Positions 1,917 to 15,129 are shown, counted from the first letter of the stretch. The stretch is DNA of 32,786 nt from an uncultured Anaerolineae bacterium (GCA_938049385.1 CALIBQ010000023.1:1-32786); one strand, 5' to 3'. Notes: generated by a model not told the origin, from the letters alone. Translations and numbers: made by a program.

Positions 1917-4900
1917 CTATGCCTTCACCACATCCACCAGGAAGGCCTTGTACTCGGGTATCTCCGTATTCGCATCACCCACATGTGGGGTCAGGAAGTT
2001 CGCCGTCCCCTGCACAAGGTCCGTCGCGCCCACATCGTATGGCAGGCCTTTCCAGCCCCAATGCCACGGCATGCCCACCACGTGGAGGGTCTTGCCGTTG
2101 ACCTGGAGCGGTTTGATGCGGGCGGTGACAATGGCAATCGCCTCGATTTCGCCGCGGGCGGAACGCACCTTGACCTTGTCGCCGTTCTTGATGCCCTTCT
2201 CCGCCGCCAGCTCCTGGCTCATCTCGATGAACATCTCCGGCTGGGTTTCCACCAGCCAGTCGAGCCAGCGGGACATGCCGCCGGCCTGCCAGTGCTCCAC
2301 CACGCGATAGGTCGTGGCAATGAGCGGGAACTGCTCCGGCGTGCCCCAGTTGTCGCCGATATCCTTCCCTTCGTCCGTCTTCCAAACCTTGACGACCGGG
2401 TTGATCTGCTGGCTGGAGAAGACGTTCTTGACCGGGGATTCCACCGGCTCATAATGCTCGGGCAGAGGTCCTTCGTTCATCGCGGCGAACAGTCCGCCCT
2501 TGCCATCGGTGCGCATGATGAAGGGGTCCTTGCCGCCGGGGTCGGTAGGAGCTTTGGTAACGACAAAATCCGGCACGTCGTAGCCCACCCACTTCTTCTG
2601 GGCCTCGTCCCACCAGATGAGCTTCTTGTCCTCCGACCAAGGCTTGCCGTCGGGGTCGGCGGAACAGCGGTTGTAAATGATGCGGCGGTTGAGCGGCCAG
2701 GCCCATCCCCAATAGGGATACTGGCCGTAGCCGCCGGGGTCGTAGACGGAGTTGCGCCGCTTGGCCGCCGGCAGCATGTTGCCGAAGCCATCCGGCTGGA
2801 GGGAGAAGTAGCCGGCGTAAATCCAGGCGCCGCTGGCAGTAGTGCCGTCCGCCTGCAGGACGCCAAAGGTGGAAAGCGTGGTCCCCTTGGCGACCAGTAC
2901 TTTGCCCTCTGCATCCTTGACGTCGTCCACGGCGAAGCCGTTGATCTCTCGCGCCACCTTCTCGATATCCAGTTCATCCCCGTAATCCCAGGCCAGGTGC
3001 AGGATGGGATCGGGGAAGGGACCGGGGTCAGCGGCGTACAGCTCTTTCAGCTTGCGGACAATGAGGTTAATGATCTGGTGGTCCGGCTTCGCCTCGCCGG
3101 GCGCCTGCGCCACCTTGTCGCGCCACTGGATGAGGCGGCCGCTGGTGACGATACTGCCGGCCTTCTCCATGGCGTCGGCGGCCGGGAGGACAAAGACCTC
3201 GGTCTGGATACCGGCGGGGTTCTCGCCCGGGGCACGCCAGAAGGAGGTGGTCTCCGTGTCGAAGATTTCCTGCACCACCATCCAATCCAGCTTCTTCAGG
3301 GCCTCGCGTTCGAAGCGGGCATTGGGGCCGCCGACAGCCGGATTCTGGCCCATGATCCAAAGGCCCTTGATTGTGCCGGCGTACATGGCCTCGAAGAGCG
3401 AGATCCAGTAGTGATTGGCCGGATTGTCCGGCTTGGGGATATAGTCATAGGCGAAGTCGTTCTCTTTGGTGGCGTGTTCACCCCACCACGCCTTGAGCAG
3501 GCTGATAAGGAATTTCGGTCCGTTGGTCCAGTAGCCGCCCGACCAGGGGCCGCCCGGCTTGGTTTTGTTCTCGATGTAGGTCTGGAGGTTTTTATCCGCC
3601 GGCGTGGGAATCGGCAGGTACCCGGGCAACAGGTGGGCCAGCACGCCCATATCCGTGGAGCCCTGGACGTTGGACTCGCCGCGCAGGGCGTTGACGCCGC
3701 CGCCGGGCCGGCCGATATTGCCCAGCAGAAGCTGGACGATGGCCAGCGCCCGCACGTTCTGCGAGCCGACCGTGTGCTGGGTCTGTCCCATGGCGTACAG
3801 GATAGTGCCAGTCTTGTCCGGCTTGCCCGATTCCGCGTACGTCTTGTAGACCTTCTCCAGCAAATCCTTGGGGATACCGGTCACCTGCGAGACAGTGTCC
3901 AGATCATAGCGGGCATAATGCCGCTTCATAATCTGGAAGACGCACCGGGGGTCCTGGAGCGTCTCATCCCGCAGTGGCTTTCCATCCGCGTCGGTCTGGT
4001 AGGTCCAGGTGGAGCGATCGTAGCTCCGCTTCTCCGGGTTATACCCTGAGAAGAGACCATCCAGCTCGTCCGGGCCTTTATAGTCGGGATGGATCAGGGT
4101 AGCGGCGTTGGTGTAGTGGACAACATACTCCTTATGGTAGAGTTCATTGTCGAGGATGTACTTGATCATCCCGCCGAAAAAGGCGATGTCTGTGCCCGGG
4201 CGGATAGGCGCATAGATATCGGCCTGGGAGGCGGTGCGTGTGAAGCGGGGGTCGACCACGATGAGTTTGGCGCCCCGCTTGTTCTGCGCCTCGTGGATCC
4301 AGGTCATAGAGGCAGGATGGTTCTCCGCGCAGTTGGAGCCGATGACCAGGATGTAATCGGAGTTCTTGATGTCCACCCAGTGATTGGTCATCGCTCCGCG
4401 ACCATACGTGGGGCCGAGACCGGCCACCGTTGAGGAGTGTCATATACGGGCCTGGTGTTCAAGGTAGATAATGCCGAGGGAGCGCGCTGCTTTGGCCGCG
4501 AGGTAGCATTCCTCGCTGTTATTGGCCGCGCCGCCCAGGAAGGCGATGGCCGGCGTGCGGTTCACCGGGATGCCGTCAGCATTGGTGCGCTCAAAGTGCG
4601 CATCGCGCGTCGCTTTGATGCGCTTGGCGACTTCCGTGATAGCCCAATCCCACTCGACCTCCTCAAAGCGGTCAGAGCCAGGTGCACGGTACAAGGGCTT
4701 CTTCAGGCGCAGTGGACTTTGAGAAAGCTGGCGCACAGCGACGGACTTGGGGTCCAGGGCGCCGCGGTTGGTGATGTTGTCTGGGTCGCCCTCCGAGTTG
4801 ATGATGTGCCCATCCGGTCCCGTTGCGATAATCAGTCCGCATCCACAGGAGCAGTAGGGGCAGATGGTGACCGCCTCCTTGACCTTCTTGTGGAGCGGGA

Positions 4901-5003
4901 AGACAGGGCCCTCCACAGTGGCCCACGCCTGACCGGCTGGTAGCAAAAGGCTCCCGCCGGCACAAGCTGTTACCTTGAAAAATTGTCTGCGGCTTAGTGG
5001 CAT
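1917..5003 (-). CDS. fdnG: Formate dehydrogenase-N type alpha subunit, selenoprotein (in-frame UGA read as Sec188)
   Basis: The catalytic bis-molybdopterin guanine dinucleotide subunit, 1028 residues if UGA at 4440-4442 is read as selenocysteine; E. coli FdnG has 1015. The N-terminus carries a Tat signal (SRRQFFK), predicting export. A cluster motif follows (C48, C51, C53, C55), then QARI-Sec-HSSTV, which aligns with QARV-Sec-HGPTV of E. coli FdnG, then PTYGRGAMTNHWVDIKN. The C-terminal dinucleotide-binding domain ends GDANTEIPEYKAFLVDVVKA, again like FdnG. Reading frame and homology continue across the UGA with no indel, so this is one gene and not two. The start has an AGGAGG site. An oddity is Asp84 (NRGALDPKS) where E. 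coli FdnG has the fourth cluster cysteine (NRGALCPKG). Confidence 0.96.
4410..4442 (-). promoter_or_regulatory. Selenocysteine UGA codon with bacterial SECIS-like hairpin
   Basis: The UGA is at 4440-4442 on the minus strand. Beginning 12 nt after it, the transcript can fold as GGUGGCC, then a GGUCUC loop region, then GGCCCC. The apical GGUCU (4417-4421) is the same motif that SelB recognises in the E. coli fdhF and fdnG SECIS elements, and the spacing from UGA is similar. The hairpin lies inside the coding sequence, as usual in bacteria. I judged the fold by eye, not by energy calculation. Confidence 0.85.
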
Positions 5004-6496: not shown

Positions 6497-6700
6497 TCAC
6501 CAGACCACCAGCAACAGCGGCGCGTTTCCGCCGGCTTCATCCAACCACACCGCAGTCCGCCGGCCCACCACCAGCTCCGCCGGTGGTATCCCTCGGCTGA
6601 TGACCACATCCCGCAAATACGCCGGCCGGCTGTCCGCCAGCGCCACGCTGGCCGTGTAGGCGCTCAGGTTCACTGCCGCCAGTATCCCCCACACCATCAT
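6497..6700 (-). CDS. Small hypothetical protein, last gene of the phage-like cluster
   Basis: A 67-residue protein starting MMVWGILAAVNLSAYTASVALA and ending PLLLVVW. The N-terminus is mildly hydrophobic and could be a membrane segment; the rest contains a short VVGRRTAVWLDEAGG stretch. I do not recognise the family. The start is well supported: the ATG at 6700 overlaps the stop of the upstream 687-residue gene (ATGA) and has a GGGAGGT ribosome site. It is therefore coupled to that tail-like gene and probably belongs to the same structural set. Reading further upstream in this frame would only overlap the tail-like gene. Confidence 0.7.
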   Translation of the reverse strand: MMVWGILAAVNLSAYTASVALADSRPAYLRDVVISRGIPPAELVVGRRTAVWLDEAGGNAPLLLVVW

Positions 6701-8760
6701 GCCCCACCTCCCGTACCGCTTTCCGGCAGTGCTACCACCGTCAGCCGCTGTTCGTACAATCCCTGCCGGCGCGCATCGTAGCGCTCCCGCACCCCCATCA
6801 CCCGCACATCGCACCGACTGCCATCCCAGCGCGTCCAGCGCAGAATATCCCACAGCTCCACGCCCCACAGCGGCCGCAGGCACAGCCATCCCGTCGGCCC
6901 TTCCAGGCCGGCGTGTCGGAGCATACCTTCCGCCGCTTTTTCCGCTTGTTGGAAGGAAAGAAGCGCCGCATCGGGCCAGATTCGCCGGCGCGTCCCCACA
7001 TCCCGGATGGCATCCAGGTCCAGCGCCCGCCCGTATACCCCCTCGCTGCAGGCCTCATAAAGGTTGGCCGGCGCCGCACCCCGCACCAACACGCCCTCCA
7101 GCACCGGCGGCTCGCCTTGCCCGCCGATAGGAAAAGGCGTCTGCAGTACCCCAGGATCGCGGAACAACACCGTGCCGTAACCGTCGAAGCGCAGGAGGTC
7201 CGGCAGATTCGCCATCAGCCGGCGCAGGGCGGTCGCCCCATCCTGGCCGGCCGGCACGACGAAGCGCGGCTTGCACGTGTTCATCAGGTCGGAGCCGACG
7301 CCGTCCGCCGCAAAGTCCAGCCCCACCAGCGCCAGCAGGTCCGCCCCGATGCTGGCCGTGGTGCGCGTGCCGTCCCAAGAGAAGAGCCGGCCGGCGCGCC
7401 ATCCCCGCAAGACCTCCCACCAACCCTCTGCCCGCACGACCAGCCGGCTCGTGCCCTGGTACTCGCGCCATTCCAACGCCGTGACGACGCCGGCCGGCAG
7501 GTCCGCGTACTGCGGCCCGCCGGCTGTCCACGCGCCGCGTGCCAGCCGCAGTTCCGCCCCCGGCCGCAGGAAGGCATACGGGGAACCGTACTGACCTGCG
7601 CGCGACAATGCCCCATCCCGGTTGTCCAGCACCACGACCAACCCACCGCCGGCCGGCAGTTCGCGATACTCATACGCCACCACCCGCTCGCCCAGCTCCA
7701 GCGGTTCTGTCTGGAGCGCCGCGCACCAGGCCCGATCATGTCCGATGAGATACAGCCGGCCCACCGAGGCATCCCAGCACAGGCGCAGGGCCACATCCGC
7801 CGCCGGCGCATAATCCGCTGGCTCCGCCTCTGTCCAACGCGCTGACCCCAGGGAAGCCGCCGGCAGAAGCGTCCGCAGGCAGGCCCGGCGGTAGGCATTG
7901 GTCCCGTCCCAGCGCTCCAGGTAGCTCAGCCGCACGGCGTCGCCGGCGCACCAGGCCGGCGCGGTGAACTGAAACTGAGTCGTGTCGGAAATTTCCAGCT
8001 CCGTCAGCGCGGCCCAAATGCCGGCGGGATATTCCCAACCGTCCCCGTACGCCAGCATCCACAGCCGCGGCAGGTAGGGCGAACTGCCGTCGCGGCCGGC
8101 GGCGACCAGCCAGAAATCGCCCTGCCAGAGCGCATCCAGGCCGCTAAAGGAATAGCGCGGCGTGCAGCTCCAGACGGACGGCGCGCCCCAGTAACCGTTG
8201 GCGTACCGCACCACCTTCAGTACATCGTCAGCGCCGGCGCCGCCGGCATCCAGCGCGTAGAACAGATACAGCTCGTACGGGGATTGGCCGCGAAAGACGC
8301 CGGCCAGCGCGGTGATACTGCTCCCCGTCGGCTCCGAAAGGATTTGCGCCGGCGTGCTCCAGGTCATCCCGCCGTCGGTCGAGCGTGCCCAGCGGATGTT
8401 GCGGTGAATGGTGCCGACCCATAGGATATGCACTTCATCACTTGTCGGATGGGCAATGACCGCCGGCGCCACATCATCGGCCGTCGCCAGCACCTGCCAG
8501 GGGCACCATTCGTCCGGGTCGTCCGGGTGGGGTATGTGGGCGACCTGCAGATAACCGTTCTCGTCCACTCGCGCCCGCACCAGTGCGCCGTCCGCGCACA
8601 AGCCGGCGTCATGCCCGTGTGCCGATTCACTGCCGGCGTACAGTTGCCGCCAGGCCGGCCGCCAAATGCCGAACCGCCGGCCCCAGACCTCTACCCGCAC
8701 CGCCGGCCGCAATTGCGGCCTTCCCTGCACCGCCAGCAGGGCTTCGGGAATCGTGCGCAT
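6697..8760 (-). CDS. Large phage tail/adhesin-like protein: Asp-box propeller-like half plus tail-hub-like half
   Basis: A 687-residue protein. The N-terminal half looks like a beta-propeller of sialidase/BNR type: a canonical Asp box, RSTDGGMTW (S-x-D-x-G-x-T-W, residues 126-134), sits among repeated tryptophan- and glycine-rich strands. The C-terminal half resembles phage tail or baseplate hub proteins: VVVLDNRDGALSRAG followed by FLRPGAELRLARG is a pattern seen in such minor tail proteins. The start follows a GGGAGGT site that overlaps the end of the connector gene, 3 bp away. It would be the only surface appendage or receptor-binding candidate in the cluster. Function is inferred from fold-like motifs; no catalytic residues of a sialidase are evident. 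Confidence 0.65.
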   Translation of the reverse strand: MRTIPEALLAVQGRPQLRPAVRVEVWGRRFGIWRPAWRQLYAGSESAHGHDAGLCADGALVRARVDENGYLQVAHIPHPDDPDEWCPWQVLATADDVAPAVIAHPTSDEVHILWVGTIHRNIRWARSTDGGMTWSTPAQILSEPTGSSITALAGVFRGQSPYELYLFYALDAGGAGADDVLKVVRYANGYWGAPSVWSCTPRYSFSGLDALWQGDFWLVAAGRDGSSPYLPRLWMLAYGDGWEYPAGIWAALTELEISDTTQFQFTAPAWCAGDAVRLSYLERWDGTNAYRRACLRTLLPAASLGSARWTEAEPADYAPAADVALRLCWDASVGRLYLIGHDRAWCAALQTEPLELGERVVAYEYRELPAGGGLVVVLDNRDGALSRAGQYGSPYAFLRPGAELRLARGAWTAGGPQYADLPAGVVTALEWREYQGTSRLVVRAEGWWEVLRGWRAGRLFSWDGTRTTASIGADLLALVGLDFAADGVGSDLMNTCKPRFVVPAGQDGATALRRLMANLPDLLRFDGYGTVLFRDPGVLQTPFPIGGQGEPPVLEGVLVRGAAPANLYEACSEGVYGRALDLDAIRDVGTRRRIWPDAALLSFQQAEKAAEGMLRHAGLEGPTGWLCLRPLWGVELWDILRWTRWDGSRCDVRVMGVRERYDARRQGLYEQRLTVVALPESGTGGGA

Positions 8761-8763
8761 GCG

Positions 8764-9387
8764 TCAACCTCCCGTGCGGAAAGGCGCCGGGCCGGCAAAC
8801 CCTGTTCCCCTCTGCACTGCCAGCTCCCTCAGCCGGCGCTGAAACTCCTCCAGCCGGCTCTTCGCCCATTCTGCCCAGTGCACCGGCGTATAGCCCGACA
8901 CATTAATAGTCCCCACCGCGCTGCGAGAGCGTTCCAGGGCGGCACAGCCGGCCGCCCCCAACAGCAGTAGCTCCAGGTCCTCCGCCGGCATGCTCGTCGT
9001 TTTGGCCCCGGACAGCCCGGCGATGCCGTGTGCCGCCCAGTACGTCAGGCGAAGCTGTTGGCCGGCCTGCGGTGCCGCCTGCGTCAGGATGGTCAGGGCC
9101 GGCCCGATGCACTCAAACGGGCACCACTGCGCCGGCCAGGCGTCCTCTTCATAAGGGAACCAGACCCGCTCCACGCCCAGCAGTCCCTCCAGCGCGCAGA
9201 GGTCCACCTGCCGGCCGTCTTCCTCCAGCGTCAGCACAACCTCCTGCCGCATGGGGAGCCAGAGATTGTACTCCCTCAGCGCCTTCTCCAAGGCCCGGTC
9301 CAGCTCATCCTCCGTCCAGGTGCTTCCTTCGACATCGCCTAGGTCCAGCGCTAGGAGCGCACGCAGTGTGCTGATATCTACGCTCAT
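8764..9387 (-). CDS. Probable phage head-tail connector (neck) protein
   Basis: A 207-residue protein beginning MSVDISTLRALLALDLGD, followed by WTEDELDRALEKALREYN. This pattern of a short N-terminal helix, acidic loop and W-[ST]-x-D/E-x-L helix is common in phage gp6-like connector or adaptor proteins encoded just after the capsid gene. The C-terminal part has a helix ending WAKSRLEEFQRRLRELAVQRG. The start overlaps the stop of the preceding small gene (ATGA). Its position between the capsid gene and a tail-like gene supports a neck role, closing the portal. The family match is by pattern and position only. Confidence 0.6.
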   Translation of the reverse strand: MSVDISTLRALLALDLGDVEGSTWTEDELDRALEKALREYNLWLPMRQEVVLTLEEDGRQVDLCALEGLLGVERVWFPYEEDAWPAQWCPFECIGPALTILTQAAPQAGQQLRLTYWAAHGIAGLSGAKTTSMPAEDLELLLLGAAGCAALERSRSAVGTINVSGYTPVHWAEWAKSRLEEFQRRLRELAVQRGTGFAGPAPFRTGG

Positions 9388-9563
9388 CGCCGGCGCTCCT
9401 TTCGCTCCGGCGGGCGCTGGGACGCGGCCGCCGGCGGGGATGCCGGCTCCTCCAGCCGCTCCTCCAGCGCCGTCACCCGCTCCACCAGTGCCCAGACCGT
9501 ATGCTCCAGTATCTGCACCCGCGCCCGCAGGGCAATCACCTCGCTGGTTCCTTTCCCCACCAC
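9384..9563 (-). CDS. Small coiled-coil protein of the phage-like cluster
   Basis: A 59-residue protein with a GTG start. The start is chosen because GGAGGT lies six bases upstream of the GTG at 9563, whereas the longer open frame to 9638 has no such site. Residues about 9-40 (EVIALRARVQILEHTVWALVERVTALEERLEE, described here in two parts: EVIALRARVQILEHTV and WALVERVTALEERLEE) show heptad-spaced Leu, Val and Ile typical of a short coiled coil. The tail is Pro/Ala- and Arg/Lys-rich. It sits between the capsid and connector genes and overlaps the latter by 4 bp. It could be a trimeric head-decoration or scaffold-like peptide, but I do not recognise it. Confidence 0.6.
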   Translation of the reverse strand: MVGKGTSEVIALRARVQILEHTVWALVERVTALEERLEEPASPPAAASQRPPERKERRR

Positions 9564-9641
9564 TGCCGCACCTCCTTCAAAGGTTTGCTGGGCGCCCGGG
9601 CCAAATGCGCCTTCCAGGCGCCCAGCGTCCCGGCACACTCA

Positions 9642-11093
9642 TCAAGCAACGTTGTTCTTGTGCAGGCCGCGATAGTCCGCCACCCCGACGCACAGGAACC
9701 AGCGCACCTTGATGCGCATCTCGTCGTTGGTGAACATAGACCCCATTACCTCGCTGTCAGCCACAAAGATTTCCGGCTCCTGCCCAAGGAGGTCCCGCAC
9801 GTCTTTATCGTTGTAAAACTCGTGCACCTCGCTGTCAGCCACAAAGATTTCCGGCTCCTGCCGGCCGAACAGCCAGCCCATCACGATGCCCTCCACCTGT
9901 GCCGGGGAGGCCACCGCCGCCCAGTTATTGGTATCGTTCCAGGGCGGCACGACGATGACCTCGAAGCCCTGGTACCAGGGGTTGATATCGTTATCGCCGG
10001 AACCGGGGATGTGCGTGCTGTTGCGGATGGTGATGGCGGTGGAGCGCAGGCTGGTCGGCACCAGGAGGAACGCCGGCGGCGCCGCCAGCTTGCGCCCGGA
10101 GCCAGGCTCCGTCTGGTTCATCATCGCCAGCGCCGCGTTGTCGAACTCTTCCAGCGACAGCGCGGCAGTGCGCAGGTTGCCGTGATGGGCGGCGTCAAAG
10201 AGATTGTACCCATCGGCCATGAGCGGCCCCAGGCCGGCGTTGGCGGTGAACACCTCGCTCACCATATCCGAGACCGTATTGTACGCCGCCGACCCCAGAA
10301 GCGTCGGGATGGCCCGCACCGCGTCCATGTCATCCGCCATGATCATCTCCAGCGTGATGCCGATGTAGTTGCCCTTTTTGGCGATGCCGGCGGTCTCCTT
10401 CACGTCATCCCAGCTCACCTCGGTATAGGCCGCGCCCTCATTCACCGTGCTCAGGGACGAGAAGCCGTGCACGCGGATCATCTTCATGTCCTGGAAGCGG
10501 TCCAGGTCGCGGTTCACCACGATGGACTGCCACCACTTCTCGCGGCGGTTGTAGGCCTGGAGCATCACCTTGTTCAGGCCGTCAGCCACCAGACCAGTCA
10601 TGGTGGCGGTCGTGGCGTTGGCCAGCAGGGATCGCTCGGGGAAAAGCCGGCCGCGAAACTCATGGTCGCCGGTCAGGGTGATGTACAGCTCGCGGATACC
10701 GCTCAGCCGAGGGATATCCCAGTAGCGCTCCGGGATGGGCAGGCCCAGCGCCCGCTCCCACGCCAGGCGCACCCGGTCCAGCTCATCCAGCATGCCGCTG
10801 ACGCCGGCGCGAGCCGCCGGCCGCGTCTCCCCCAGCCCCTTCACCACGCCGGCCTCCAGCAGTTCGGCCCAGGTAACGCGCTGGGCGGCAATGGCCTGCC
10901 CCAGCTCCTGCGGGTGAAACAGCCGGCCGGCGAAGCGCTGGCGCACGGCGCGCTCCATCGCCTCCGGCAGGCCGGCATCCCGCAGGGCCGCGTTCAGCGC
11001 ATGCTCACATTGAAGCAGGGCAAGCGCATAGGTCGGTGCCGGCTCCGGCGCGCCGGCGGCACCATTCGATAACATCTGTTCGTTCGTGGTCAT
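9642..11093 (-). CDS. Alternative internal start: stand-alone major capsid protein
   Basis: Within the protease-capsid frame the ATG at 11093 (protein start MTTNEQMLSNGAAGA) is preceded by AGAGGAGGA at 11101-11109, as good a ribosome site as any in the cluster. Translation from here gives a 483-residue product without the protease domain. Overlapping in-frame starts of this kind are known in phage head genes (lambda C/Nu3 produces a nested scaffold). Here the nested product would be the capsid protein itself, which would solve the stoichiometry problem of few proteases and many capsid subunits. This is a proposal from the sequence, not a separate gene in another frame. Confidence 0.5.
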   Translation of the reverse strand: MTTNEQMLSNGAAGAPEPAPTYALALLQCEHALNAALRDAGLPEAMERAVRQRFAGRLFHPQELGQAIAAQRVTWAELLEAGVVKGLGETRPAARAGVSGMLDELDRVRLAWERALGLPIPERYWDIPRLSGIRELYITLTGDHEFRGRLFPERSLLANATTATMTGLVADGLNKVMLQAYNRREKWWQSIVVNRDLDRFQDMKMIRVHGFSSLSTVNEGAAYTEVSWDDVKETAGIAKKGNYIGITLEMIMADDMDAVRAIPTLLGSAAYNTVSDMVSEVFTANAGLGPLMADGYNLFDAAHHGNLRTAALSLEEFDNAALAMMNQTEPGSGRKLAAPPAFLLVPTSLRSTAITIRNSTHIPGSGDNDINPWYQGFEVIVVPPWNDTNNWAAVASPAQVEGIVMGWLFGRQEPEIFVADSEVHEFYNDKDVRDLLGQEPEIFVADSEVMGSMFTNDEMRIKVRWFLCVGVADYRGLHKNNVA

Positions 11094-11684
11094 CCGACTT
11101 TCCTCCTCTGTCATTGATTGAAAAACGGCTGTTCCGCCCGAAGCATTGAGCACCCGCAGGAAGGTCCCGCCGGCGGCGGGGTCAAACATCACGTCCAGGG
11201 AATGCACCTGCTGGATGCGCCGCACCAGCCCGCCGGCGTCCCGCAGTACCAGCAGGTCCGCGCTCAGCCCGATGCGCGGCACCGCCCGGCCGGCCTCCCG
11301 GTCTGCCAGCCACTGGCGCGCTAGCTCCGCCACCAGCGGCCCCTTCGGGCCGGCCAGACGCAGGCGCGCCCGCACCCCATCCTCATACCATGCCTCCTCG
11401 ACCACGCCGGCCAGGTCGCTCAGGGTTCGGCCGCCGGCACGCGTGGCGTCCAGCGCGTCGGGATGGTCCAGGAACACCGCCGCGCCACGCCACAGGCCGG
11501 CCCCCACGCTGGCTTCCAGCACCTCCGCCGGATAACGCAGGCCGTTGGCCTCGCCGGCGCGCATAGCCAGCACCTCCAGCCGTGCCATATCCTTGGCGGC
11601 ATCCGCCCCGCCGGCCGGCATCCATTCCCCCAGCCGCGCCCGGGCCAGCTCCAGCCGGCCGGCTTCCGTTTGCTCCACTTCCAT
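9642..11684 (-). CDS. Prohead protease-major capsid protein fusion
   Basis: A single 680-residue frame. Residues 1-185 look like a phage prohead protease of the assemblin-like serine type: AVFLDHPD supplies His74 and RIGLSADL supplies Ser141, with conserved LAGVVEEAWYEDG in between. From about residue 200 the protein looks like a Mu-type major head subunit: WWQSIVVNRDLDRFQDMKMI, GITLEMIMADDMDAV and the end RIKVRWFLCVGVADYRGLHK. The start chosen at 11684 has GGAGGG eight bases upstream; a GTG at 11705 is less likely. An internal ATG at 11093 also has a strong ribosome site, so capsid protein may also be made alone. The C-terminus contains an exact 37-bp duplication. Confidence 0.8.
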   Translation of the reverse strand: MEVEQTEAGRLELARARLGEWMPAGGADAAKDMARLEVLAMRAGEANGLRYPAEVLEASVGAGLWRGAAVFLDHPDALDATRAGGRTLSDLAGVVEEAWYEDGVRARLRLAGPKGPLVAELARQWLADREAGRAVPRIGLSADLLVLRDAGGLVRRIQQVHSLDVMFDPAAGGTFLRVLNASGGTAVFQSMTEEESRMTTNEQMLSNGAAGAPEPAPTYALALLQCEHALNAALRDAGLPEAMERAVRQRFAGRLFHPQELGQAIAAQRVTWAELLEAGVVKGLGETRPAARAGVSGMLDELDRVRLAWERALGLPIPERYWDIPRLSGIRELYITLTGDHEFRGRLFPERSLLANATTATMTGLVADGLNKVMLQAYNRREKWWQSIVVNRDLDRFQDMKMIRVHGFSSLSTVNEGAAYTEVSWDDVKETAGIAKKGNYIGITLEMIMADDMDAVRAIPTLLGSAAYNTVSDMVSEVFTANAGLGPLMADGYNLFDAAHHGNLRTAALSLEEFDNAALAMMNQTEPGSGRKLAAPPAFLLVPTSLRSTAITIRNSTHIPGSGDNDINPWYQGFEVIVVPPWNDTNNWAAVASPAQVEGIVMGWLFGRQEPEIFVADSEVHEFYNDKDVRDLLGQEPEIFVADSEVMGSMFTNDEMRIKVRWFLCVGVADYRGLHKNNVA
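9748..9862. repeat. Exact 37-bp direct repeat inside the capsid gene
   Basis: The same 37 bases occur at 9748-9784 and 9826-9862, 78 bp apart start to start, so the frame is kept. The protein reads QEPEIFVADSEV twice, with VHEFYNDKDVRDLLG between. Absence of any base difference suggests a recent duplication or slippage, or an assembly artefact. Confidence 0.9.
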
Positions 11685-11734
11685 GCCTTCACCCTCCTTT
11701 CCCACACCGAAATTGTTCCCGTCCGCACGAAAAC

Positions 11735-11763
11735 TTGCCAGCCATCCCTGGATGTGATATAAT
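11735..11763 (+). promoter_or_regulatory. Plus-strand promoter ahead of the small zinc-ligand gene
   Basis: TTGCCA (11735-11740) and a perfect TATAAT (11758-11763) are 17 bp apart on the plus strand. Transcription would begin near 11770, about 100 nt ahead of the ATG at 11870. The promoter lies just upstream of, and divergent from, the protease-capsid start, so its transcript runs antisense to any read-through between portal and capsid genes. Confidence 0.75.
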
Positions 11764-11869
11764 CACACTGGAAATGAATCCCCTTGCGCAGGATATGGTC
11801 TCCTGCCGGCGCTCAATGGCGAGCCTCTCTGTACACGCGTGAAAGCCCATATCTCCCTGGAGGTGGACC

Positions 11870-12097
11870 ATGGCGCAACAACTGCATCTGGGGACCCTGC
11901 TCGCCGCATCAACTACCCAGCCCTCCGAGCGACCGACGTTTCTGCTCCATCGCGTCAAGTGTCCGAAATGCGGGCAGTCGGTCTGGTTCACCCTGCGCTC
12001 CGACTGTTCGCCGGAGGAAGTGGATGCGGCCCGACGATGGGAGGCCCAACGATTGCTACGCGAGCCGTGTGAGCGGCATGCCAGCCGCAGTCGGTAG
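11870..12097 (+). CDS. Small cysteine-rich (zinc-ribbon-like) protein, only plus-strand gene
   Basis: A 75-residue protein with KCPKCGQSVWF (Cys31, Cys34), Cys46, and EPCERH (Cys67, His70), enough ligands for one zinc site. A helical DAARRWEAQRLL segment lies between. The start has GGAGGT five bases upstream and a strong promoter at 11735-11763, so it is a real transcription unit although it lies on the strand opposite to every other gene here. It occupies the gap between the portal and protease-capsid genes. I do not recognise the family. A Com-like regulatory zinc finger (known from phage Mu, where Com controls translation of mom) is one possibility; a DNA- or RNA-binding regulator of the head genes is inference. 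Confidence 0.65.
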   Translation: MAQQLHLGTLLAASTTQPSERPTFLLHRVKCPKCGQSVWFTLRSDCSPEEVDAARRWEAQRLLREPCERHASRSR

Positions 12098-12135
12098 ACC
12101 TTCCTGACAGGCTATCCCCTTCCTTTCCCCAAGTG

Positions 12136-13458
12136 TTACGCGTCCGTACGAACGGCATCACCGGAAGCAGTTTGTAAGAGCGAGTCAATATCTTCCTCAC
12201 TGATGAGTTCGCCGGCGGCCTTAAAGGCCAGTCGTATGGCACGGCGCGCGTCCACCCAGCCCAGCTCCCGCATACGGGCCAGCGCTTCCACCATCTGCCG
12301 CGCCGCCCGGCTCAGCGACTCGTTATCATCGCGCACGATCTCCGGCGCGGATACCTTCAGTTCCAACCGCTCGTAAAACCGCGCCCTGCCAATCGCCGCC
12401 GCCCGCTGATAGGCGACCTCGACGAGGCGCTCCACCATGCGGCATACTTCCATCTGCCGCCGGCGGTAATGGCGGAAGGTCGGGTCCCCCATCTCCGCCG
12501 CCGTGGCACGGGTCGCCGATTCCCCCTCGCTGAGGAAGTGCAGGGGCACGCCGGCGCCGGCCGCCACCAGCAGGCGCATCGCCTTGCCGTCCGCCTGCGC
12601 GTCCTGCGCACCAATATGCGGCTGAACCGCCTCCCAGCGCTCCCCCTCGTTGCTGATAATGACCGAGCCAGGAGTCGGCGGCCGGCTGTACTCGGCGCGC
12701 TTCTGCGCGATGGCCGCCGGCGTCGCCCCGCGCAGGGTTACCTGCCAGACGAACGAGGACTTCAGCCGGTTTACCCGCACGCGGTCCTCCAGCCAGGCTG
12801 TATAATGCTCCAGCCATGGCAGGATGGGCGTCAAATCCCCCTCGCCGCGCAAGGCCCCGGGCGGCCGGTTGATGGTTACATGCAGCATGACCTGCGGAGC
12901 CTGCGGGTCCGCTGTCTCCGCCGCCGGCCACCAGCGTCCCCCGTCCAGAAGATGGGCGCTGGTCATCTCGTGATAGCGCAGTTCCCGCTCCAGGTCGTCG
13001 GGGTCGGTCTCGATCCCGTCAATCCGGCAGGCCGGCACCAGCCGGACATAGGACATGCCGTCGGCCGGATTGCGGCTCAGCACGATGAACAGCTCGCCGG
13101 CGCGCGTCAGTTCGTCCACCCAGCCGTACAGCCGGCTGTCCATACGGTTCTGCGGGTGCGTCCAGAAGCGCCTCGCCCACTCGTCCACCTCCGGGATGCC
13201 GGAGGAAATGCTCAGGCCGTCCCCCAGCACATAATCTGTGGTCAGGCCCACGATGCGCCGCGCCAGGGGATGGTCCCGCCAAGCCTTCAGCGCCGCCTCC
13301 AAACCGTCCTGCCGCTGGTGCCAGGCCGGCTCGATCGGCGCCGCCGGCGCGTTCACCACCCGCCACCAGGCATCATCCACCACCTTCACCGCCTCCTGTA
13401 CCCGCGCCTCGATCAGCCCGCCGAACAGCCGCTCCGCCATCCTCGCCTTCCAGTTCAT
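12136..13458 (-). CDS. Phage portal protein
   Basis: A 440-residue protein that fits the phage portal type: an N-terminal region with VDDAWWRVVNAP, then HPLARRIVGLTTDYVLGDGLSI, a GELFIVLSRNPADG strand, and a region DRVRVNRLKSSFVWQVTLRG followed by SVIISNEGERWEAVQP and GVPLHFLSEGESATRATAAEMGDP, typical of portals from siphovirus and myovirus heads. Portals form the dodecameric ring through which the terminase pumps DNA. The start at 13458 is fixed by a near-perfect AGGAGGAG five to six bases upstream; the frame is open to 13560 but that would overlap the terminase. It lies 20 bp behind the terminase gene. The C-terminus (EEDIDSLLQT) is acidic. Confidence 0.85.
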   Translation of the reverse strand: MNWKARMAERLFGGLIEARVQEAVKVVDDAWWRVVNAPAAPIEPAWHQRQDGLEAALKAWRDHPLARRIVGLTTDYVLGDGLSISSGIPEVDEWARRFWTHPQNRMDSRLYGWVDELTRAGELFIVLSRNPADGMSYVRLVPACRIDGIETDPDDLERELRYHEMTSAHLLDGGRWWPAAETADPQAPQVMLHVTINRPPGALRGEGDLTPILPWLEHYTAWLEDRVRVNRLKSSFVWQVTLRGATPAAIAQKRAEYSRPPTPGSVIISNEGERWEAVQPHIGAQDAQADGKAMRLLVAAGAGVPLHFLSEGESATRATAAEMGDPTFRHYRRRQMEVCRMVERLVEVAYQRAAAIGRARFYERLELKVSAPEIVRDDNESLSRAARQMVEALARMRELGWVDARRAIRLAFKAAGELISEEDIDSLLQTASGDAVRTDA

Positions 13459-13478
13459 ATTCTCCTCCTGATGCGTTA

Positions 13479-14930
13479 CTACCCTTGACCCAATATATCG
13501 GGCGCTTCGATGAGCGTCGAAGCCGGCGCCGGCCCGGCCAGGCAGGCCGCACGCACGCACAGGGCCAGCGACATCACATAGTCGTCATGCCCCTCCTCCG
13601 CCGGCACGAAAAAGCGCATCTGCTGTCCCGGCAGGGCCTCGCGCCGGCAGGCCCGGCACTGCGCCCAAAACTCCCGGTATTCTGGTGAGCCATCGTCGGC
13701 ATACATCTGCACGCGGCCGGCGCCCACCGCCGCCAGCAGTCCATAACCCAGCCGGCTCTTCGCCCCCTGCGAGAAGACGAACGGCTCCACCCGCTCTGCC
13801 CCCAGCGCGGCGCTGAGGAACGATGCTGCGCCGGCGCCGATGCCCGTCGCATCCACGACCAAACGCTGTACCTGCCGCTCCCGCGCAAGCTCCGCTGTCT
13901 GCACGCCCAGCGCGGTCAAATCCTCCCCCCGCCAAACAACATGCTCGATAATGAACAGCCGCGGCAGGGAAACGCCGGCCATTTCATAGGGTACCACCAC
14001 CGCCACCGTCAGCACGCTGGCATCATGTTCGCCGGCCCCACTCCCACCCACGTCCAGGCCCGCTACCACACTAGTGCCCTCCGCCGGCGGCTGGCGGCGG
14101 GGATGCGTGCCGGTCATCCGCTCCAGCAGGGCCGGGGAGAAGAGCCGGCCGGCGCCGGTCAGCGGCCGCAGGGCATACTGCGTCATGAACAGGGGATGCT
14201 CCTCACCCAGCCGCTGGCGCTCCCCTTCTACGAAGCGCCGGTACGACTCGTCCATACCAGCCAGGACACGCCAGCCGCTCTCAAAATGCCGGCGCAGGCT
14301 GTCCCGGCGCTCCGCCTCTAGGTTGTGCAGTTTCTGCCGCCAGAGCATGTCATCCTCGCTCCACGCCGTCCCGTACAGCACCGTAGTGGCGTTGGTGGTG
14401 GAAGCCATAGGTCGGAAATCGCGCTGATACTTCTCAAAATCGAAATCCTGGGCCTCGTCCACTTCCAGCAGGAGGCTGGCTGTCGCGCCCACTACATTGG
14501 CGCCGGCATCGCCGCTGAGAAACACGGCGCGCGCCTTCCCCAAGCGAATCATGTACCCCCGCTCCCCCTTCCAGCGGCCGGCGTTCAGCGGGTTATCCAG
14601 CAGGGACTCCAACCGCGTCTTGCTCACCAGAAGCTGAGGCTGAAAGGTCGGCGCGGTCTTGACGATCGTCCCGCCGGCCCGCTGAAACAGGTTCAGCAGG
14701 TACGCCTCCAGGTGGGCAGACAATTCGTTCTTGCCCATCTGCCGGGCGAACATCACCGTGAAGGTGAGCCCCTGACGCTGGAGCACGGAGCGGACGATGG
14801 CCTGAAGCGGCTCAACTTGATAGGGGCGCAGGGGCCGGCGCAGGATATGCCGGCTGAACGCCGCCGGGTCCCGCAGTACCTGTGCCAGGATATCGCTGGC
14901 ATTTCGTTTGCTCCGCCCGCCTGCCATCAT
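13479..14930 (-). CDS. Phage terminase large subunit (packaging ATPase and nuclease)
   Basis: A 483-residue motor protein. The N-terminal ATPase has a terminase-type Walker A (FARQMGKNE, residues 61-69), a Walker B with catalytic carboxylate (LLLEVDEAQD, residues 153-162) and a coupling motif (TTVLYGTAWSEDD). The C-terminal RNase H-like nuclease shows GLDVGGSG...DASVLTVA, LVVDATGIGAG and GHDDYVMSLALC, which supply its metal-binding acidic residues. All key motifs look intact, so the enzyme is probably functional. ATG at 14930 is taken as start; an in-frame TTG at 14945 is possible. It is the first gene of the cluster, behind a promoter with a LexA-like dyad. No small terminase subunit is recognisable nearby. 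Confidence 0.9.
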   Translation of the reverse strand: MMAGGRSKRNASDILAQVLRDPAAFSRHILRRPLRPYQVEPLQAIVRSVLQRQGLTFTVMFARQMGKNELSAHLEAYLLNLFQRAGGTIVKTAPTFQPQLLVSKTRLESLLDNPLNAGRWKGERGYMIRLGKARAVFLSGDAGANVVGATASLLLEVDEAQDFDFEKYQRDFRPMASTTNATTVLYGTAWSEDDMLWRQKLHNLEAERRDSLRRHFESGWRVLAGMDESYRRFVEGERQRLGEEHPLFMTQYALRPLTGAGRLFSPALLERMTGTHPRRQPPAEGTSVVAGLDVGGSGAGEHDASVLTVAVVVPYEMAGVSLPRLFIIEHVVWRGEDLTALGVQTAELARERQVQRLVVDATGIGAGAASFLSAALGAERVEPFVFSQGAKSRLGYGLLAAVGAGRVQMYADDGSPEYREFWAQCRACRREALPGQQMRFFVPAEEGHDDYVMSLALCVRAACLAGPAPASTLIEAPDILGQG

Positions 14931-15012
14931 GCCCGCCCCCAACAAAAAACCGCGCCGGTGCCAGGCCTCCTGCGGCCTGCGCCCGCGCGGAATTCGCTCA
15001 GGGCATCTGATT

Positions 15013-15026
15013 AGAACATCAGTTCT
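15013..15026. promoter_or_regulatory. LexA-like operator dyad at the terminase promoter
   Basis: The palindrome AGAAC-ATCA-GTTCT contains GAAC-N4-GTTC, the core of the Gram-positive type SOS box. It lies just downstream of the predicted -10 box (15038-15043) on the minus strand, covering about +5 to +18, where bound repressor would block transcription. A second overlapping dyad (CTGAT-N6-ATCAG) is present. Whether LexA of this lineage uses this motif is not known to me. Confidence 0.5.
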
Positions 15027-15037
15027 ATTCTGGGGAA

Positions 15038-15066
15038 AGGATAACGGAAAGATGGGGAGCTGTCAA
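15038..15066 (-). promoter_or_regulatory. Promoter of the phage-like cluster
   Basis: On the minus strand a perfect TTGACA (15061-15066) and TATCCT (15038-15043) are 17 bp apart. Transcription would start near 15031, about 100 nt ahead of the terminase ATG. It lies in the short gap after the terminator of the acetyltransferase operon, so the cluster appears to be an independent transcription unit. Confidence 0.7.
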
Positions 15067-15083: not shown

Positions 15084-15117
15084 AAAAAACGCCTCCCACG
15101 GGATTTCCGTGGGAGGC
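15084..15117 (-). terminator. Intrinsic terminator after the acetyltransferase gene
   Basis: On the minus strand a perfect 11-bp stem (GCCTCCCACGG with CCGTGGGAGGC, loop of five) is followed at once by a run of six T after a single G. It begins 13 bp after the acetyltransferase stop and closes the methyltransferase-acetyltransferase unit. Confidence 0.92.
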
Positions 15118-15129
15118 ACCGGGCGGAAG

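Follow-up and report, generated by a model that had tools for sequence, protein, structure and literature searches.

Gene transfer agents (GTAs) such as RcGTA (Rhodobacter/Caulobacter) and BaGTA (Bartonella) are phage-derived structural gene clusters that are fixed in the chromosome, inherited largely vertically across a class, held under purifying selection and devoid of integration and replication genes of their own. To our knowledge, only a handful of unrelated GTA lineages are known, none of them in Chloroflexota. A literature search for GTAs in Anaerolineae, Chloroflexi or Chloroflexota found nothing relevant in open-access articles (most subscription journals and bioRxiv lay outside its scope). 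Here we describe a gene cluster that resembles RcGTA and BaGTA in the above respects, on a stretch of 32,786 nucleotides from an uncultured Anaerolineae bacterium (GCA_938049385.1 CALIBQ010000023.1:1-32786; referred to as the window), which forms contig C23 in a draft assembly of 3.37 Mb (G000). Unlike RcGTA and BaGTA, the cluster lies in a Chloroflexota host, is unrelated to any named system by the searches used here, lacks genes for a tail tube, a tape measure and lysis, and is a candidate for DNA transfer.

The cluster is an operon of seven co-directional open reading frames (ORFs) on the minus strand (6497-14930). That it is phage-derived and maintained by selection is well supported, and host domestication in this genus is likely. 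In our view it is, on balance, probably a DNA-packaging particle that the host has domesticated, that is inducible by SOS and that acts in the manner of a GTA, the transfer function itself being a plausible hypothesis. A preliminary description of the locus had offered three options (a reduced prophage, a satellite that borrows tails, and a GTA-like particle for DNA packaging, domesticated by its host), of which the last fits best. The genes, identified with Pfam and PHROGs profiles, are given below in operon order; G001 and G002 are the two other species of the genus.

13479-14930, minus strand: large terminase subunit (TerL), 483 aa (phrog_2, E 5e-11; Terminase_6C, 3e-4)
12136-13458, minus strand: portal protein, 440 aa (phrog_10963, E 1e-34)
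9642-11684, minus strand: head-maturation protease-major capsid fusion, 680 aa (phrog_133, E 1e-54; phrog_4523, 5e-49; Phage_capsid_4, E 2e-28)
9384-9563, minus strand: small protein of 59 aa with a coiled coil, kept in both G001 and G002
8764-9387, minus strand: head-tail connector/adaptor, 207 aa, of family K2 (SU10_adaptor, E 2e-4, below the model's own cut-off)
6697-8760, minus strand: tail-hub protein, 687 aa, with a predicted Mu gp44/PVC hub fold into which a beta-propeller of the lectin/sialidase type is inserted (AlphaFold2 model)
6497-6700, minus strand: 67-aa protein, function not assigned, overlapping the end of the hub gene and conserved in G002

The seven ORFs are present as first described, and the profile matches bear out the earlier impression that the terminase, portal, protease-capsid and connector genes are intact. 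TerL retains a Walker A-like motif (RQMGKNE), a Walker B motif (LLLEVDEAQD) and the nuclease Asp motifs. The operon sits between a GNAT-MttB-opp operon on its upstream side and a formate dehydrogenase operon on its downstream side. A Pfam scan of all contig genes confirmed that the remaining ones are cellular (formate dehydrogenase, GNAT, MttB, opp, AFOR and others). No integrase, tRNA, tail tube, tape measure, lysis, integration or replication gene was found on the contig, and no att-like repeats were found flanking the cluster; a prophage at an att site was rejected on the absence of flanking repeats, integrase and tRNA. A replication initiator is likewise absent from the locus, that gene being restricted to viral contigs and one further locus (L127).

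The cluster stands beside the same GNAT-MttB-opp genes in each of the three species of the genus, and no frameshift or internal stop was observed in it across the three. The portal gene of G002 is interrupted at contig ends (C30, C141), which is an assembly break. The ratio of nonsynonymous to synonymous substitution rates (dN/dS) was calculated by YN00 for this genome against G001 or G002. The values were 0.07 for TerL (against G001), 0.05 for portal, 0.06 for capsid, 0.14-0.20 for the adaptor, 0.09-0.15 for the hub and 0.31 for the 67-aa protein; the main cluster genes thus lie at 0.05-0.2, compared with 0.02-0.08 for the flanking genes. These ratios show that the main cluster genes are under purifying selection in the genus. 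An origin as a single-strain peculiarity or an artefact was rejected, the cluster being common to three species. Hence, the check proposed in the preliminary description, of locus and dN/dS in relatives, favoured conservation, and neither frameshifted relatives nor an att site of a full prophage was found.

The region upstream of TerL contains the following signals.

15088-15120, minus strand: intrinsic terminator of the upstream GNAT/MttB/opp operon, a 14-bp stem followed by a T-run, conserved in G001
15038-15066, minus strand: sigma70-type cluster promoter TTGACA-17-TATCCT, hexamers and spacing conserved in G001
15014-15025, minus strand: predicted LexA (SOS) box ATAGAACTGATGTTCTAA, just 3' of the −10 hexamer, between the promoter and the TerL gene

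The terminator appears to insulate the cluster. The promoter reported earlier was confirmed at 15066-15038, while the LexA box next to it had been missed. In an alignment, the promoter and the palindrome ATAGAACTGATGTTCTAA are both kept in the sister species G001, and GAAC-N4-GTTC occurs only once in the 32.8-kb window, at this promoter. The lexA gene of this genome was identified (TIGR00498, 194 bits; LexA DNA-binding and S24 domains), and its promoter bears the same palindrome between −35 and −10. Because the lexA promoter carries this box, SOS control of the operon is a strong prediction. The same box precedes an FtsK/SpoIIIE-like gene by 18 nt; the gene next to it, in divergent orientation, belongs to the exonuclease/endonuclease family (exoIII). 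A LexA box was present in the 400 nt that precede the first core gene at 19 of 82 distinct loci of related clusters, compared with 18 of the 971 upstream regions used as controls (nominal p = 8e-16, which overstates independence as the loci are phylogenetically related), and the LexA half-site ranked first among the 256 palindromic half-sites. No LexA box was found within 1.5 kb on either side of recA in this genome. A further strong box was observed in this genome at L345 3038-3292, 57 nt upstream of the gene for a 61-aa ribbon-helix-helix protein. The predicted direct LexA box sets the operon apart from the Caulobacter GTA, which is controlled through RogA/GafYZ (PMC9632790).

The preliminary description had the 687-aa protein as a large appendage in a cluster without tail genes. 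The absence of tube, tape measure, lysis, replication and integration genes stands for the contig, whereas the appendage itself is predicted to be a minimal tail part. Foldseek searches with the AlphaFold2 model returned hub (E 7e-9) and lectin (E 4e-7) folds. Residues 16-676 of the model matched the hubs of Mu gp44, PVC and a Streptomyces contractile injection system (CIS) with a VIA Z of ~16-17. Residues ~35-346, which interrupt the hub, matched fungal and Photorhabdus lectins and sialidases (VIA Z ~16). The predicted hub fold is thus shared with Mu gp44 and CIS hubs, and the six-bladed lectin-type propeller with the Photorhabdus PLL/PHL lectins; the protein differs from them in that a single chain combines both folds, and genes for a sheath, a tube and a tape measure are lacking. 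Judged from this model, the cluster would encode a tail tip without a tube or tape measure, and such a tubeless tail, if true, would be a pared-down means of delivery that merits structural study. The hub protein had no match in the phage collection and no significant match to the putative hub family K8 by hhalign. A long-tailed phage with its tail genes elsewhere was rejected, as profiles for the tape measure (PF10145), the K8 hub and the small terminase matched nothing in the genome (the latter two without a positive control). The search for tail genes elsewhere that had been suggested earlier therefore found none of the tape-measure or K8 type, and this, together with the cluster's own hub-plus-propeller tip, weakens the option of a satellite that borrows tails.

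We next consider the family in the class. Among 150 relatives, 33 have a capsid homologue. A portal homologue was found in 69 of the 396 class genomes sampled (17%), nearly always as a single copy; portal identity between families of the class is ~50%, and the adaptor family K2 was found in 85 loci. A GTDB scan gave 125 loci, of which 80 were kept, almost all from Anaerolineae and several from type strains; cultured Leptolinea, Bellilinea, Longilinea, Levilinea and Ornatilinea carry the family. The typical Anaerolineaceae cluster is ~10 kb and consists of a small terminase-like protein, TerL, portal, protease-capsid, a small membrane protein, adaptor and one or two tail proteins, with a GH25 endolysin in many cases. 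Recurrent flanks were seen across Anaerolineaceae genera, with Tad-like genes on one side and Ham1 and rpoD on the other. When a portal-plus-capsid tree of 29 taxa (G059 left out) was compared with rpoB, 11 of the 15 strong rpoB splits were shared and 2 contradicted; tip permutations gave at most 4. Inheritance of the family is thus class-wide and largely vertical.

Three loci with the same family are titled Deltaproteobacteria, Micrarchaeota and Syntrophobacterales (L127, L139, L142) and are probably mis-binned contigs; L142 has Anaerolineaceae flanks, and L127 carries the phage replication initiator.

In genus g2, intact portal and capsid genes stand at separate loci among cellular genes (L336 8618-9781, L337 8966-10129, L338 8231-9394, L060 5229-7154, L061 8973-10907), with between-species identities of 91-99% for portal and 89% for capsid over aligned codons. 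This is hardly how a virus keeps its genes; a host might. These lone genes, the fact that TerL is undetectable beside portal and capsid in several families, and the unusual tubeless tip with its lectin-type propeller would also suit a domesticated particle with another job, namely an SOS-released head-plus-lectin particle that kills or binds kin, or that stores or delivers something other than DNA. We consider this very unlikely for the operon in the window, whose TerL keeps its ATPase and nuclease motifs under purifying selection, from which DNA packaging is implied. It may be noted that in L061 ~5 kb separate the capsid gene from a GNAT gene homologous to that of the window, a proximity that may mark an ancestral shared locus.

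The viral relatives of the cluster were sought in IMG/VR. A scan with the single capsid protein was empty, but absence of the family from viral collections was rejected, since profile scans matched ~290 contigs that hold the family. Among them, L149/L232 carry a serine recombinase and a replication initiator, and L172 a tyrosine integrase; temperate short-tailed phages of the family thus exist. They are like the window in their portal, protease-capsid, adaptor, TerL and hub families, and unlike it in having a recombinase or integrase and the replication initiator. Because integrating phages of the same family exist, the operon in the window is taken to be phage-derived. The nearest named phage, Microcystis phage Mae-JY22, has a homologous portal (30% identity) and protease-capsid (27%), and differs in being a 41-kb phage with an annotated tape-measure protein.

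These contigs could also be read as signs that the cluster is a still-mobile small phage or a capsid-encoding satellite, which relies on a helper to replicate, to lyse the cell or to supply tail parts, and which is conserved because it is selected as it spreads. Consistent with this, a locus in G059 (L054 12647-12964, 13593-13668) has an integrase fragment next to tRNA-Glu, and the cluster there has the appearance of a genuine prophage from this family. At the locus in the window, however, there is no integrase, replication gene or att repeat, the upstream locus is shared by three species, the tree largely follows rpoB, and the cluster encodes a hub of its own. On these grounds a mobile element is improbable.

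Several observations weigh against a domesticated, GTA-like particle. On the downstream side, G000 has formate dehydrogenase and G002 a molybdopterin oxidoreductase, and therefore sharing of the locus is shown for the upstream side only. Occurrence in the class is patchy at the 17% given above, the portal/capsid tree contains some transfer (G035-G134), and some chromosomal copies of the family are probably prophages, which may account for part of its distribution. The hub model has a mean pLDDT of 55.7, i.e., low confidence. No small terminase was found at the locus, and neither a small terminase nor a K8-type hub gene was matched by profile elsewhere in the genome, in searches run without a positive control. 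Holin and endolysin genes are absent from the contig, a genome-wide search for them not having been made. Lastly, TerL is in two frames in G061 (L034 14214-15735) and lacks its N-terminal part in G074 (L036 6446-7516), through decay or assembly error.

Some of these points suit a defective prophage remnant. On this reading, a temperate short-tailed phage integrated in the genus ancestor; its genes for integrase, replication, small terminase and lysis were lost, and what is left undergoes slow decay without a function under selection. Such a history would explain the missing small terminase and lysis genes, the broken TerL of some relatives and the existence of integrase-bearing relatives. It would also fit a private change in this genome, an in-frame 26-codon insert in the capsid gene (QEPEIFVADSEVHEFYNDKDVRDLLG; about residues 614-639) flanked by a 37-bp direct repeat (window 9748-9862), which has no counterpart in G001 and G002 by alignment and may be a real duplication or an assembly artefact. 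At the dS of 0.5-0.9 seen in the neighbourhood, however, a neutral gene would be expected to show a dN/dS of ~1 and frameshifts, whereas the main genes stand at 0.05-0.2 with no stops. Moreover, the promoter and LexA box are conserved, and portal and capsid are still intact after their dispersal in genus g2. We therefore regard a remnant as unlikely: the reduced prophage of the preliminary description is retained as an origin, given the integrase-bearing relatives, and simple ongoing decay is not.

If the operon does specify a GTA-like particle, it may work as follows. LexA would repress the operon promoter, and inactivation of LexA by DNA damage would allow expression. TerL would drive DNA by way of the portal into a capsid of the HK97 type that the protease has matured, and the adaptor would seal the head. 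A trimeric hub may dock directly on the adaptor, with no tail tube or tape measure between them, and its beta-propellers may bind sugars on the surface of the recipient cell. The cargo would be mostly host DNA, because there is no small terminase and no own replicon. Assembly of the particle, its host-DNA cargo, its release and its delivery are steps that we infer.

More tentatively, the family may form an undescribed LexA-controlled GTA lineage throughout Anaerolineae, derived from a short-tailed phage whose tail was reduced to a single lectin-bearing hub on the head adaptor, with the head genes dispersed in some lineages; we think this possible rather than probable. Anaerolineae are abundant in sediments, digesters and hot springs, and we know of almost no genetic exchange system in them. 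A class-wide SOS-linked particle, if true, would offer these bacteria a means of exchanging genes and repairing DNA. The proposal is directly testable because cultured Anaerolineaceae type strains carry relatives of the cluster.

The cluster had been described as lying on one strand. This holds for its seven genes, but an additional ORF with its own promoter was found on the plus strand, between portal and capsid.

11735-11763, plus strand: promoter of the zinc-ribbon ORF, TTGCCA-17-TATAAT, conserved in G001 as read from the alignment
11870-12097, plus strand: zinc-ribbon (CPKCG) protein, 75 aa, genus-specific, single copy at high identity

The zinc-ribbon protein is 100% identical in amino acid sequence in the three species, with a DNA identity of ~97% and a dS of 0.11, compared with 0.5-0.9 in the neighbouring genes. 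The region (11735-12097) was also considered as a structured RNA, which was rejected (folding z-score −0.37).

In the downstream operon, the formate dehydrogenase alpha subunit is found in two ORFs, 4440-5003 and 1917-4427 (window 1917-5003), and is probably split at an in-frame TGA selenocysteine codon.

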